From a virus, in the IMG/VR virus record IMGVR_UViG_3300011115_000152, positions 1 to 24,855 of that record: a stretch of DNA of 24,855 nt. One strand, written 5' to 3'. The first letter of the stretch is position 1, and each line of letters begins with the position of its first letter. This document shows, one piece after another, positions 17,045 to 22,267 of the stretch. Under the pieces are notes generated by a model. It did not search any database. It saw nothing but the letters and a program-made list of their open reading frames with translations, and was not told the origin of the DNA. Made by a program: the position numbers and the translations under genes.

Positions 17045-17308
17045 TTAGCGAGTCTTCTTTTTGGCTGCAGTCTTCTTCTTGGCTGGCTTTTTAACTGGCT
17101 CATCTACCTCATCACAGATATTGCAATCATCATCGCACTCATCCCAGTCTACTCCTAGCCAGGAGTCATACTTATATTCTAGTTTTGATAGACGCTTCTT
17201 AAAGCGATAAGTGTGAATCTTTAAGGCTAGATAATCACTAAAGATTTCTAATACTTTATAGATTGCAATAGCAAGAACAACGCTAGATACAATTGTTGAA
17301 TCAATCAT
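17045..17308 (-). CDS. Small membrane protein with Cys/Asp cluster and Lys-rich tail
   Basis: This 87-residue protein starts at ATG 17308, overlapping the WhiB stop by 4 nt. An N-terminal hydrophobic helix (STIVSSVVLAIAIYKVLEIF, residues ~4-23) is followed by a basic helical region (YRFKKRLSKLEYKY). Next comes an acidic cluster with three Cys (WDECDDDCNICDEVDE) and a Lys/Ala-rich tail (KKPAKKKTAAKKKTR). The cluster could hold a metal or a disulphide. It is the last gene of the minus arm. A membrane-bound or envelope role is suggested by the N-terminal helix. No family is recognised. Confidence 0.65.
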   Translation of the reverse strand: MIDSTIVSSVVLAIAIYKVLEIFSDYLALKIHTYRFKKRLSKLEYKYDSWLGVDWDECDDDCNICDEVDEPVKKPAKKKTAAKKKTR

Positions 17309-17577
17309 TCGTATATCCTATCTGACACAAGCGGTATCGGTGTGATACCTAGTCTTCTTCTTTCTTCTCTTCGCATCCTTTCGGATGTGTTTCCCCACCA
17401 TCCCAGTACATAGTAACGTAAGGAATACTCTTTACACTCTGATATGACTGGACATGCTGAGCAAATTCTTTTTAATGCGGGAAGGTTTTCGTACATTTTT
17501 GACTGTTCATCTGTAAAGAACTGCTCTGTATCTGTACTTGCACAGTTGGCTTGTTCCATCCATTTTGTTTCTTGCAC
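17305..17577 (-). CDS. WhiB-family [4Fe-4S] transcription factor
   Basis: The 90-residue protein has the WhiB layout. Four cysteines (Cys12, Cys39, Cys42, Cys48, as QANC and ICSACPVISEC) ligate an iron-sulfur cluster, and a GWWGNTS turn (residues 59-65) matches the family's G(V/I)WGG motif. A basic C-terminal segment (RMRREERRRLGI) is the DNA-binding part. WhiB proteins act with the host principal sigma factor at promoters in Actinobacteria, and phage copies can alter host transcription or block superinfection. The second Gly of GWGG is here a Trp/Asn variant. GTG 17577 has GGAGG (17583-17587, complement) 5 nt upstream. Confidence 0.92.
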   Translation of the reverse strand: MQETKWMEQANCASTDTEQFFTDEQSKMYENLPALKRICSACPVISECKEYSLRYYVLGWWGNTSERMRREERRRLGITPIPLVSDRIYE

Positions 17578-17835: not shown

Positions 17836-18020
17836 TATTCACACCCATCTATTTCTGTCGGTGCAGTTGTAATTGTTCCGCATTCTATGCACTCCTGTGC
17901 TAGGTCGTACCAACCAACTGCTCTAGTATCTTCATCCCACATAACTGTAATCTTAAACATCATACAGCCACATATACAGGCAAATGTAGGCTCACCTCTA
18001 AGGTCTACTTTAGACTGCAT
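17835..18020 (-). CDS. Small Cys-rich zinc-binding-like protein, 61 aa
   Basis: The 61-residue protein has two Cys clusters, FACICGCMMF at about residues 13-22 and ECIECGTI at about 43-50, an arrangement that suggests a single zinc ribbon. There is an acidic end (EIDGCE). The ATG at 18020 overlaps the end of the sigma-like gene by 11 nt. Its stop overlaps the FmdB-like start. The zinc fold and the neighbours suggest a protein- or DNA-binding accessory factor. No further family assignment is possible. Confidence 0.65.
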   Translation of the reverse strand: MQSKVDLRGEPTFACICGCMMFKITVMWDEDTRAVGWYDLAQECIECGTITTAPTEIDGCE

Positions 18021-18648
18021 GTTCTTCTTTCTTGACTATATCATCTTCGTGGTATGGTCTCCATCCACCTAGATTTTTAATTAAAGAACTTATCGCACGC
18101 TGCACTTTCATGCGTGCACCATCTGGTGTGCTATCCATATCCTTGGCAAGTAATGCCCAGTCAGGTGAGTCTATGCTAAAGCGTAGACGTAGCACATTCT
18201 GCTTTGCTTCACTTAACTTTTCAAATGCATGTGATATATCGCTTCTTAATGCAAGCCAATTGTTACCTTCTGCGTCGTTACCTGTTCCAAACTTGGCGTT
18301 GAGGTCTTGAATACTAACTGGGATTGAATATGTGCCTGCGATAATTGATGGTAGGAATGCTTCAACAACTGTTGCATCATAGTAATAAAGGTCGGAGGAA
18401 TCATAACCAGACTTTTTGGCTTTCTCCTTCTCACAATATTTAAGAGCCGCATTACGTAGCGATTTAGCAATTAATTTATCCCTATCTTTTTGTTCTAATT
18501 TAGCCCACTCTTGCGACTTACGGGGGTGCGCTACAAACCATAGCCATAACTCTTGCCTAATATCATCACGTTCTAACATGCCATAACGCTTGTGATACTC
18601 AGCAGATAGTTGTTGAACCATCTCATTGTATTCTTCTAGATAGTTCAC
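18010..18648 (-). CDS. Sigma-70-like protein / sigma-factor-related transcription regulator, 212 aa
   Basis: The 212-residue protein has the two-part organisation of small sigma factors. An N-terminal helical region (ERDDIRQELWLWFVAH, then RNAALKYCEKEKAKKSGYD) resembles sigma region 2. The C-terminal part (FEKLSEAKQNVLRLRFSIDS, then WALLAKDMDSTPDGARMKVQ) resembles sigma region 4 with its helix-turn-helix (LSE..Q..VL.LR, then LA, and a recognition helix). It could direct RNA polymerase to phage promoters or act as a DNA-binding regulator. The start is GTG 18648 overlapping the TGA of the previous gene. Co-occurrence with WhiB, which binds sigma region 4, is notable. Confidence 0.65.
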   Translation of the reverse strand: MNYLEEYNEMVQQLSAEYHKRYGMLERDDIRQELWLWFVAHPRKSQEWAKLEQKDRDKLIAKSLRNAALKYCEKEKAKKSGYDSSDLYYYDATVVEAFLPSIIAGTYSIPVSIQDLNAKFGTGNDAEGNNWLALRSDISHAFEKLSEAKQNVLRLRFSIDSPDWALLAKDMDSTPDGARMKVQRAISSLIKNLGGWRPYHEDDIVKKEEHAV

Positions 18649-19677: not shown

Positions 19678-19978
19678 CAAGCAACTCCTTTAGTTCATCA
19701 TCCATATTCTCATTTAAGACTTTAACTATCATCTCGTTGAGAACATCTTGGCTTTTACCATACTTGGCAGCCAACATAGTTGCAGCCAGCCCTGTAATAA
19801 AGAACATAGCATCTTCTGGCTTGTCTTCTTTGATGAGTTCATAAATACTTTCTAGTGCATGAAGGATATTAAGATACTTACCTTCCTCCAGTTGTATACC
19901 TACCTTAAAGTCTAGGTGCTTGATATGCTCCCAAAAACTATCATCCAGCGGCAATGCATTCTCTGATTCGTTCGTCAA
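19664..19978 (-). CDS. Helical acidic protein, unknown
   Basis: The protein is about 104 residues, acidic and helical (DSFWEHIKHLDFKVGI, YLNILHALESIYELIKEDK, FFITGLAATMLAAKYGKS, NENMDDELKELLDEKP). No cysteine or motif is recognised. The start is unclear. TTG 19978 is used here because AAGGGAG lies about 8 nt upstream, whereas GTG 19987 overlaps that same Shine-Dalgarno. Either start overlaps the end of the primase gene. It is sandwiched between primase and the nucleotide-related gene, so it may act in replication, but this is inference. Confidence 0.6.
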   Translation of the reverse strand: MTNESENALPLDDSFWEHIKHLDFKVGIQLEEGKYLNILHALESIYELIKEDKPEDAMFFITGLAATMLAAKYGKSQDVLNEMIVKVLNENMDDELKELLDEKP

Positions 19979-20588
19979 TCCATTCACTCCCTTGCTTGAT
20001 TATCATACTGTTTACGTCTTCACCGTCTGGCATGCTAATGATATTAACGTTGCCTAGTTCACGACTAATCTTCTTGCCAAATTCTAGCCCTGGTTTATCG
20101 CCATCGGCTAGTACTACAACTGTTTCGAAATCATCTAGAATCTTTGAGTAATGTTTCTTCCAGTTGTTTGCTCCAGGAATACCGACTGTTGGATGTTGAG
20201 TCTTGACACTCATCATAATACAATCAAACTCACCTTCGGTCACACATATGTAATCATCGGCAGCAAAGACTGCCTGAGTATTAAACATAGTAGTTTCAGA
20301 ACCAACTAACCCCATATACTTAGCATCATGTGTACCTGTTAGGTCACGGAATCTAATATCTACCACGCCTGATGGCGTGATATATGGGATGGCTAGTCTG
20401 CCAGTATACGGTTCATGTCCTGGCAGTGGGTCTTCTACCAGTCCCAGATGAAATATGTTTGCCTCTTCTACCGAGAGTTGACGGCTTGATAGATACTCGG
20501 CTACGTTTTCTATCTTGGCTGCGTATCTCTGTGTTGCCTGCAGAAGAAAACTTCTCTGCGAATTGTTTAGCCTCACTAAAATTAACAC
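19941..20588 (-). CDS. dnaG-like: Primase catalytic part, TOPRIM domain (second frame of split primase)
   Basis: The 215-residue ORF carries the catalytic half of a DnaG-type primase. Around residues 60-85 there is LAIPYITPSGVVDIRFRDL. The TOPRIM signature follows: ICVTEGEFDC (Glu118) and VVVLADGDKPGLEFGKKI (Asp162, Asp164). These residues bind the metals for RNA primer synthesis. The zinc domain lies in the overlapping ORF 20413-20793 in another frame. The ORF's GTG start at 20588 has no good Shine-Dalgarno, and its first ~14 residues do not resemble primase, so the C-terminal part may be made by a +1 frameshift from the upstream ORF (see findings). Confidence 0.88.
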   Translation of the reverse strand: MLILVRLNNSQRSFLLQATQRYAAKIENVAEYLSSRQLSVEEANIFHLGLVEDPLPGHEPYTGRLAIPYITPSGVVDIRFRDLTGTHDAKYMGLVGSETTMFNTQAVFAADDYICVTEGEFDCIMMSVKTQHPTVGIPGANNWKKHYSKILDDFETVVVLADGDKPGLEFGKKISRELGNVNIISMPDGEDVNSMIIKQGSEWIDERIRECIAAG

Positions 20589-20793
20589 CTTCCTTGTGCA
20601 TAATTAAGGAATAAGTATCGCCTTTGACACCACAACCGTGGCAGACAAAGGCGTTCTTATCAAAGTTTACTGCTGCACTTGCATGTGTATCTATGTGGAA
20701 TGGACATTTCATTTTGCGCCAGCCGCTGCCCATAGCAGGCACGGCTGCGCCTATGTAATAAAGATACTCTTCAATGCTGGGTTTACTTTCCAT
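20413..20793 (-). CDS. dnaG-like: Primase zinc-finger part, CHC2 type (first frame of split primase)
   Basis: The 126-residue ORF carries the N-terminal zinc domain of DnaG primase. The ligands are Cys30, His33, Cys51 and Cys54 (MKCPFHIDTHASAAVNF, then AFVCHGCGVKGDTYSLIM), followed by EGVNFSEAKQFAEKF. This domain reads template and sets the primase start site. After residue ~82 the translation stops looking like primase and becomes Arg/Ser-rich (QDRKRSRVSI, RRGKHISSG), which is the frame mismatch described in findings. If the frames fuse, the protein would be about 283 residues. ATG 20793 overlaps the end of a small zinc protein. Confidence 0.85.
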   Translation of the reverse strand: MESKPSIEEYLYYIGAAVPAMGSGWRKMKCPFHIDTHASAAVNFDKNAFVCHGCGVKGDTYSLIMHKEGVNFSEAKQFAEKFSSAGNTEIRSQDRKRSRVSIKPSTLGRRGKHISSGTGRRPTART

Positions 20794-20893
20794 TTGTACA
20801 ATCTAAACATATAGGAAAATCATATTTGTAATCAAATTTATCATCGTCTAAGTTCTTTAAGCAATCTTCACAATACGTTTTTTCCTGAATCAT
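20783..20893 (-). CDS. Tiny double-CxxC zinc protein, 36 aa
   Basis: The 36-residue ORF has two CxxC knuckles, YCEDC (Cys8, Cys11) and ICLDC (Cys29, Cys32), the spacing of a minimal zinc ribbon. Between them lies an acidic stretch (NLDDDKFDYKYDF). ATG 20893 has AAGGAG 8 nt upstream. It overlaps the nuclease gene by 26 nt and the primase ATG by 11 nt. Its place directly before the primase suggests a partner role. I know no family. Confidence 0.65.
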   Translation of the reverse strand: MIQEKTYCEDCLKNLDDDKFDYKYDFPICLDCTNGK

Positions 20894-21227
20894 TTAATGC
20901 TCTCCTTAGTAAATCAAGCCAAACATGGCCAGGTGTAGTGCAATACCATTCGCCAGGACTTCCCCTACCCTTGCGTTTGTGCCACACTACACCTGTCCAT
21001 GCCCCGTCATTACTCATTTCGGTGAGTAATTCTTCTGTCCATCCAGCAAGGTCCATCTTGCTATGGTTTTTGATTTCAATTGTAACTCCAGGTATACCTG
21101 AAATGTCACCTTTGTCTAGAGTTGCACCAGCCAAACGTCTATCGGCGTAGGGAAAACCATTCTCTTTAAGATAGTCTCGAACATCACGCTCTGCTCCTGC
21201 GCCTTTAGCCTTGGCTGCTTTACTCAT
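20868..21227 (-). CDS. PD-(D/E)XK nuclease, Holliday-junction-resolvase-like, 119 aa
   Basis: The protein shows the archaeal Hjc-like layout of small junction resolvases: KGAGAERDVRDYL with Glu13, then DKGDISG with Asp41, then TIEIKNHSK with Glu51 and Lys53 (the ExK). A helical region with Trp follows (GWTEELLTEMS), then WHKRKGRGSPGEWY. Such enzymes cut branched DNA during phage replication and packaging. It lies between the helicase-like ATPase and primase. ATG 21227 overlaps the preceding stop (ATGA). Confidence 0.8.
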   Translation of the reverse strand: MSKAAKAKGAGAERDVRDYLKENGFPYADRRLAGATLDKGDISGIPGVTIEIKNHSKMDLAGWTEELLTEMSNDGAWTGVVWHKRKGRGSPGEWYCTTPGHVWLDLLRRALNDSGKNVL

Positions 21228-21367
21228 TCTTTGGATTGCTCCTTAATTGTATTAATCATCCAGCCATTTGTTTCTAATTTTTGTGCACGTTCTTCTGCTA
21301 TTTCTAGTGAAGAAGCACGAATAATTTTTGTTTTATTTTTTTCATATACAATCTCATATTTTGGCAT
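21224..21367 (-). CDS. Small protein, 47 aa
   Basis: A 47-residue ORF connects its neighbours exactly: its ATG at 21367 overlaps the ATPase stop (TAATG) and its TGA overlaps the nuclease ATG (ATGA). The sequence is mixed alpha/beta (MPKYEIVYEKNKTKIIRASS, LEIAEERAQKLETNGWMINT), a pattern of a strand pair and helix with a terminal strand. It has no cysteine. The fit between genes is the main support. Function is unknown. Confidence 0.65.
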   Translation of the reverse strand: MPKYEIVYEKNKTKIIRASSLEIAEERAQKLETNGWMINTIKEQSKE

Positions 21368-22182
21368 TATACTCTCATTTCTACCTGTCTGTAGTCTCTA
21401 ACTATATCTTCTAAGTGCATTGATGCTGGGTCAAATGATAGTGATATATATGTGTTACCAGTTGCATCTGCTTTGCCATAGCGATTCTTAACTGGGGCTA
21501 CACATAGATACATATCCATGCCTTGCATCATTTGTCCTACTGTGAGAACCATAGCAGGAATCTGGGCAACCTTGCCCTGCAACGCAGAACGTGGTTGACA
21601 TGGATAGCCAGGGGCACCTTCTTGTGTATGGTGCAATACCAATACTGCTGCATTGGTATCACGGGCTAAATACTTTAACTCTTTCATAACCTGTCGCATA
21701 CCTGCGAACTCTTCATGTCCATCGATTGCAATGTCCATAAGGTTATCTACAACTATAAGAGTAGGAGACCTACCCCAGATAGTTTCAAATGCAGATACTT
21801 CTTCATCTAAGTCACGAAGAGTAGGGCTTGGTTCGAATGACCAATACATATTTCCATACTCACGTAAGATTGACTCTGCTGTATCTGGTTGAGTCTTTAG
21901 CATTAGTTCTGCTTGTTGCTGTGGTATGCGTGCTCGAAGTGCGAGTAATCGCATAGCCATTGTATGTGCATTGGTATCTGCTGAGAAGTATAGTGTTGGT
22001 TGTTTTAATCTTGCAGCAATATGCAATGCAATACTTGACTTGCCAGCACCAGGAGTGCCAGCAATTACTGTTACTTCTGCACGCCGTAGAATAATTCCTT
22101 CTCTAGCAAAGGCTTGGAAAGGTGGGAGTAATGGTTCTCCTCCCACCTCTGCCTTACCTACACTACGGCGTAGTGTTTTCAA
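21367..22182 (-). CDS. RecA/DnaB-type ATPase (replicative helicase-like)
   Basis: The AAA/RecA-fold protein has Walker A IAGTPGAGKSS (Gly42 to Ser49 from the start used) and Walker B LIVVDNLMDI with Asp146. A VLVLHHTQEG segment like the sensor/H4 motif of DnaB follows. Single-domain ATPases of this form are annotated as DnaB-like helicases in many actinophages and act with the primase encoded downstream. TTG 22182 has GGAG 6 nt upstream. GTG 22194 (four residues longer) is possible but lacks a Shine-Dalgarno. It lacks the N-terminal domain of full DnaB. Confidence 0.82.
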   Translation of the reverse strand: MKTLRRSVGKAEVGGEPLLPPFQAFAREGIILRRAEVTVIAGTPGAGKSSIALHIAARLKQPTLYFSADTNAHTMAMRLLALRARIPQQQAELMLKTQPDTAESILREYGNMYWSFEPSPTLRDLDEEVSAFETIWGRSPTLIVVDNLMDIAIDGHEEFAGMRQVMKELKYLARDTNAAVLVLHHTQEGAPGYPCQPRSALQGKVAQIPAMVLTVGQMMQGMDMYLCVAPVKNRYGKADATGNTYISLSFDPASMHLEDIVRDYRQVEMRV

Positions 22183-22267
22183 TTTTATCTCCACATCTAA
22201 CGCAGTAAATACCTACGCCTGTCAAAGAACTCCAGTAACTATGCCCAAATAATTTGCATAGCCACAT
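22163..22267 (-). CDS. Tiny zinc-knuckle protein, DUF1660-like, 34 aa
   Basis: A 34-residue ORF starts at ATG 22267, overlapping the end of the upstream gene by a few bases less than one codon's distance (its upstream TAA is 22271-22273). The sequence MWLCKLFGHSYW, then YCVRCGDKIENT, is a CxxxxGH...CxxCG module (Cys4, His9, Cys22, Cys25) that I recognise as typical of many small phage proteins. It overlaps the first part of the ATPase gene in another frame by 20-32 nt. The metal site is inferred from the Cys/His spacing. Confidence 0.6.
   Translation of the reverse strand: MWLCKLFGHSYWSSLTGVGIYCVRCGDKIENTTP

Follow-up and report, generated by a model that had tools for sequence, protein, structure and literature searches.

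The window considered here is the whole stretch of 24,855 nucleotides of viral DNA in IMG/VR record IMGVR_UViG_3300011115_000152. Its minus strand carries two overlapping genes, P1 and P2, whose products correspond to different parts of a DnaG-type primase (Table 1). P1 matches the Pfam CHC2 family (PF01807, 8.7e-13) and phrog_360 (1.3e-30), and its model resembles the DnaG zinc domain 1d0q. The CHC2 zinc ligands are intact in the window (CPFH...CHGC), and C29, H32, and C50 are invariant across 42 P1 members. The mechanical P2 open reading frame (19941-20588, minus strand) matches the Toprim family (PF13155, 1.4e-07) and phrog_849 (1.6e-44), and P2 resembles the DnaG catalytic domains of the PDB both by sequence and by fold. 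The catalytic TOPRIM residues of DnaG are present in P2 as EGEFD, DGD, and a later Asp, and are invariant across 36 members (E113, E115, D117, D157, D159, and D186 in A5 numbering). An earlier note on this DNA had placed a CHC2 part and a TOPRIM part in different frames, +1 apart, and the PF01807, PF13155, and phrog_849 matches bear this out. The overlap of 176 nt given there is correct for the mechanical reading frames, but that of the actual genes, counted from the conserved GTG, is 164 nt.

Table 1. Features of the primase locus and its neighbours in the window
Feature	Coordinates	Strand	Basis or remarks
P1, CHC2 zinc-binding domain protein of primase, 126 aa	20413..20793	-	ATG start, TGA stop
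P2, RNA polymerase (TOPRIM) domain protein of primase, 211 aa	19941..20576	-	Conserved GTG start
Dual-coding overlap, P1 frame 0 / P2 frame +1, 164 nt	20413..20576	-	Both frames constrained
P2 start codon GTG	20574..20576	-	GTG/ATG in 61/61 unique relatives
Shine-Dalgarno-like AAGGAAGG, within P1 codons K-E-G, 5' of P2 start	20588..20595	-	Sequence inspection
Proposed +1 slip site TTT-T, P1 codon 82, judged not functional	20547..20550	-	Hexamer variation
P1 C-terminal basic tail, predicted disordered, kept up to own stop	20413..20535	-	pLDDT, N1S2 rate, R4 clade
36-aa CxxC...CxxC mini-ORF adjoining P1 5' side	20783..20893	-	Pattern match
RusA-like Holliday junction resolvase, neighbour	20868..21227	-	phrog_244 7.7e-24
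DnaB/RecA-fold helicase, neighbour	21367..22194	-	Pfam AAA_25 3.2e-15, DnaB_C 1.3e-12

The DnaB/RecA-fold helicase encoded nearby is likely the primosome partner of the primase. The mini-ORF overlaps the P1 start by 11 nt at its stop end, and the same small reading frame was found by pattern in two further loci (L005 and L010).

The split between the two genes is conserved. The +1 overlap occurs in 79 of 80 relatives from viral contigs, with much the same length throughout, and the 80th relative is a truncated locus. Overlapping loci from viral contigs, three further sets, and annotated phages have the +1 relation in 199 of 199 instances, some contigs being counted in more than one relative set. 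Among 80 distant relatives, 67 encode both parts in separate reading frames, which are +1 and overlapping in 67 of 67; the other distant matches are mostly long single-chain proteins, and one has both domains in one frame. Family-wide, P2 overlaps the end of P1 by about 110-190 nt, and by more in some members, a range into which the window fits; 59 of the 61 unique close relatives have exactly the window's distance from the P2 start to the P1 stop. No close relative with one intact fused primase frame was found. Two annotated DNA primase genes in the same arrangement are present in phages of Mycobacterium, Rhodococcus, Gordonia, Streptomyces, and Propionibacterium, and the possibility raised in the earlier note that the split is real, with a parallel in mycobacteriophages, is borne out by these overlapping pairs. 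One rival explanation supposes a single-frame primase gene that was broken by an assembly or sequencing error of one base or recently inactivated by mutation, and in any one genome a single-base insertion would look identical to such a split. Conservation across the viral contigs (79/80) and many isolate genomes rules out the single-base assembly error also raised in that note and, with both frames under selection (see below), leaves this explanation next to no probability. The openness of the second frame was dropped as evidence, since synonymous recoding of the P1 tail leaves the +1 frame open by chance in 18% of cases (3641 of 20000); the case for a second gene therefore rests on homology.

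The bacterial release factor 2 gene is a programmed +1 frameshift gene, with two frames +1 apart. An event of this kind had been proposed for the window, in which the ribosome would shift at P1 codon 82 to produce a single fused primase of about 283 residues. The codon TTT (20550-20548) is present as described and is followed by T, which would allow re-pairing in the window genome; every overlapping relative has its frames +1 apart, and ordinary DnaG has both domains on one chain. The site itself, however, is variable. Across the 61 unique relatives the slip hexamer is GTTCTT in 47, TTTTCT in 9, and TTTCTT in 5, so that the perfect slip site of the earlier note exists in the window but recurs as TTT-T in only 9 of the 61. 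What is conserved about the frame break is the +1 relation, shared by all overlapping loci, and not the slip codon. Unlike programmed +1 frameshift genes, the window family has no conserved shift site, and its second frame has a start of its own and is constrained 5' of the site.

Conservation of the P2 start codon, which counts against a frameshift, is complete among the 61 unique close relatives. Aligned on the conserved motif that follows, the start position holds GTG in 59 and ATG in 2 of them, and the frame-1 codon straddling it ends in T in 61 of 61 against a background of 48-54%, although these relatives, like the mycobacteriophages below, share ancestry and the counts are not independent. 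An in-frame stop lies three codons 5' of the P2 start in 15 of the 61. The P2 residues ahead of the slip site, RLNNSQRS, had been read as a non-primase start; they instead stand at the head of a conserved motif (L-S/N-x-S-Q-K/R), where the catalytic domain's first helix also begins. A longer P2 beginning at GTG 20588 was rejected, as this codon is present in only 20 of the 61 and has in-frame stops behind it in some relatives. The mycobacteriophage group has TTT or TAT as the straddling codon in all 54 members (T-ending background 6% and 9%), 51 of which carry TGA two codons 5' of the P2 start, and its P2 Shine-Dalgarno beats 100 of 100 synonymous recodings. That of the window clade is only weakly better than chance, 8 of 100 synonymous recodings being equally good, and this signal alone is not significant. 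A conserved start and Shine-Dalgarno for a P2 translated alone, which the earlier note had set against a fusion, are therefore found at the level of the family, where the Shine-Dalgarno is strong in mycobacteriophages and the Streptomyces phage R4/Omar clade; in the window clade the start is conserved but the Shine-Dalgarno is weak.

Three mycobacteriophage sublineages have ATC at the P2 start position, with a good Shine-Dalgarno ahead of it (for instance AGGAGGTGAACT-ATC). These comprise L093 (1489-1491), most of L322-L350, L351-L361, L364, and one further locus. P2 in these sublineages likely has a conserved AUC start, with another route possible there; their want of a common P2 start is a point in favour of the +1 frameshift. 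In RidgeCB, no ATG, GTG, or TTG was found ahead of the conserved P2 first helix; the P2 start in its deposited record, like that of HanShotFirst, falls 3' of this helix.

Substitution patterns also bear on the question. In 29 disjoint pairs of relatives, each substitution was assigned to a class according to what it changes in either frame. Changes silent in frame 1 and non-silent in frame 2 fall from a rate of 0.029 ahead of the P2 start to 0.0063 in the stretch between it and the slip site, a frame-1-synonymous rate ratio of 0.22 (95% CI 0.07-0.39). This drop indicates that frame 2 is already coding ahead of the slip site; none would be expected in a frameshift gene, because frame 2 is unread there. 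Between the slip site and the P1 stop, changes silent in frame 2 and non-silent in frame 1 occur at a rate of 0.0121, as compared to 0.0317 beyond that stop, and the resulting frame-2-synonymous (N1S2) ratio of 0.38 (95% CI 0.28-0.50) indicates translation of, and selection on, the P1 tail 3' of the slip site. In 14 pairs of mycobacteriophages, the first ratio is 0.42 (0.12-0.82) and the second is 0.76 (0.54-1.08), an interval that spans 1. At the level of sequence, the comparison shows both frames of the overlap to be coding, in the manner of two proteins with two starts.

The predicted P2 structure has a mean pLDDT of 95 and matches DnaG catalytic cores (1dde, 1.5e-10; 5vaz), the full domain being present from the first residues. 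Its first helix begins at model residue 4, 5' of the slip site, with a pLDDT of about 93 there. A fusion at codon 82 would abut the two domains and lose the first residues of this helix. The P1 model has a confident zinc domain up to about residue 86 and is disordered after it, with a pLDDT below 50 for tail residues 87-117 of the 125-residue model, which lacks Met1. The P1 tail often ends in P-x-W or is rich in R/K.

In the R4/Omar clade of Streptomyces phages, covering 39 loci of which 30 are unique, the same two genes stand side by side without overlap. P1 ends in YVPAWKRK and a TAA or TAG stop; a Shine-Dalgarno of the GGAGG type follows, and P2 starts at TTG. Both peptides that one stretch of bases encodes in the sister phages L130, L131, and L139, the tail of P1 and the start motif of P2 (LSTSQKE), persist in the clade. 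In the P2 tree, the R4/Omar clade is nested within overlapping phages, as one change, so that the separation of the genes is derived; the direction of the change was read from this tree together with the shared P1 tail. Of the 39 loci, 25 have P2 in frame +2 relative to P1, 11 in frame +1, and 3 in frame 0. In the three R4-type loci with P1 and P2 in the same frame (L109, L114, and L134), only the stop codon and the Shine-Dalgarno stand between the genes. Frames 0 and +2 cannot be joined by a +1 shift, and the P1 tail is kept even where the genes do not overlap. Given also the variable site, the P2 start and frame-2 constraint 5' of it, and the constraint on the P1 tail 3' of it, a programmed +1 frameshift producing a fused primase is highly improbable. 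Equally hard to credit is a compromise in which P1 and P2 are made separately and low-level +1 slippage adds a minor fused product. Comparative data reveal what is selected and not every product made, which leaves some room for such a product; nevertheless, there is no conserved slip site, and 28 of the 39 R4 loci have a frame relation other than +1 and so manage without a slip.

The locus very probably encodes a two-chain primase of the DnaG type, made from two independently translated, dual-coding overlapping genes whose chains would act together. Translation of P1, a zinc-binding domain with a disordered basic tail, would run from the ATG through to the stop codon of that gene. P2, the catalytic RNA-polymerase/TOPRIM chain, would be initiated separately at the internal GTG in the +1 frame; initiation within the P1 gene is necessary because that gene, stop codon included, runs on for 164 nt from the P2 start. 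As the comparison shows, the end of P1 and the beginning of P2 are both encoded in the shared nucleotides, and no ribosomal frameshift would be required to join the two. The chains would form one primase, with the zinc domain acting in trans on the catalytic domain beside the DnaB-like helicase. Corn et al. in 2005 reportedly described subunit crosstalk in trans in ordinary DnaG. A bolder version, tentative and somewhat more apt to fail than to hold, takes the two-chain state of this DnaG primase to be ancient and natural, with a zinc domain that works in trans only. The P1 tail would then be a functional docking peptide long locked in dual-coding overlap with the first helix of P2, from which the R4 clade alone escaped by separating the genes.

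Bacterial DnaG (PDB 1d0q, 2au3, 1dd9, 5vaz) shares with the window the zinc and catalytic folds and the conserved acidic residues. It is, however, one chain with a helicase-binding domain, whereas the window encodes two chains that lack this C-terminal domain, the tail of P1 overlapping the start of P2. The closest known counterpart is the overlapping primase pair of actinobacteriophages (phrog_360 and phrog_849; genes 54/53 of Mycobacterium phage Journey13; gp32/gp31 of P. acnes phage), with which the window shares a zinc-ribbon gene followed by a +1 TOPRIM gene with a long overlap. The neighbourhood is also similar, with a DnaB-like helicase and a resolvase or endonuclease VII upstream and, in most, a metallophosphoesterase downstream. 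The window nonetheless belongs to a different, uncultured clade, its P2 having about 45% identity to the nearest annotated isolates. Compared to mycobacteriophages, its Shine-Dalgarno is weaker and its GTG is one codon further in than their TTG. The R4/Omar pair is like the window in both proteins, the P1 tail, and the P2 start motif, and differs in having no overlap, a free relative frame, and a canonical Shine-Dalgarno between the genes.

Overlapping primase pairs, a frequent layout among phages of actinobacteria, are already known to actinophage annotators: "overlapping DNA primases" were remarked on for cluster A1 mycobacteriophages (PMC12613952), and gp31 and gp32 of P. acnes phage, both DNA primase, are listed at overlapping coordinates (PMC3094311). 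In the open-licence literature, no paper was found on a split primase under that name, nor any study of how overlapping actinophage primases are translated. In passages of the Kampy proteomics paper (PMC4626039), no protein-level detection of overlapping primases was found. The present comparison removes a false frameshift candidate, and comparison alone can tell overlapping genes from frameshifting. The family also amounts to a natural experiment in dual coding, since one clade separated genes that nearly all others keep overlapping, and the constraint that the overlap places on each protein is directly measurable by setting R4 against the overlapping clades. If the trans model is true, the two-piece primase is ready-made for studying control of primer synthesis by the zinc domain.

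Other genes of the window touch on its host and on the primase gene block. A sigma-factor-like gene (18010-18648, minus strand; phrog_354, 1.5e-19) lies in the block. A WhiB-type regulator gene is present at 17305-17577 on the minus strand (PF02467, 2.7e-13); WhiB is an actinobacterial marker, and the gene suggests that the host of the window phage may be an actinobacterium.
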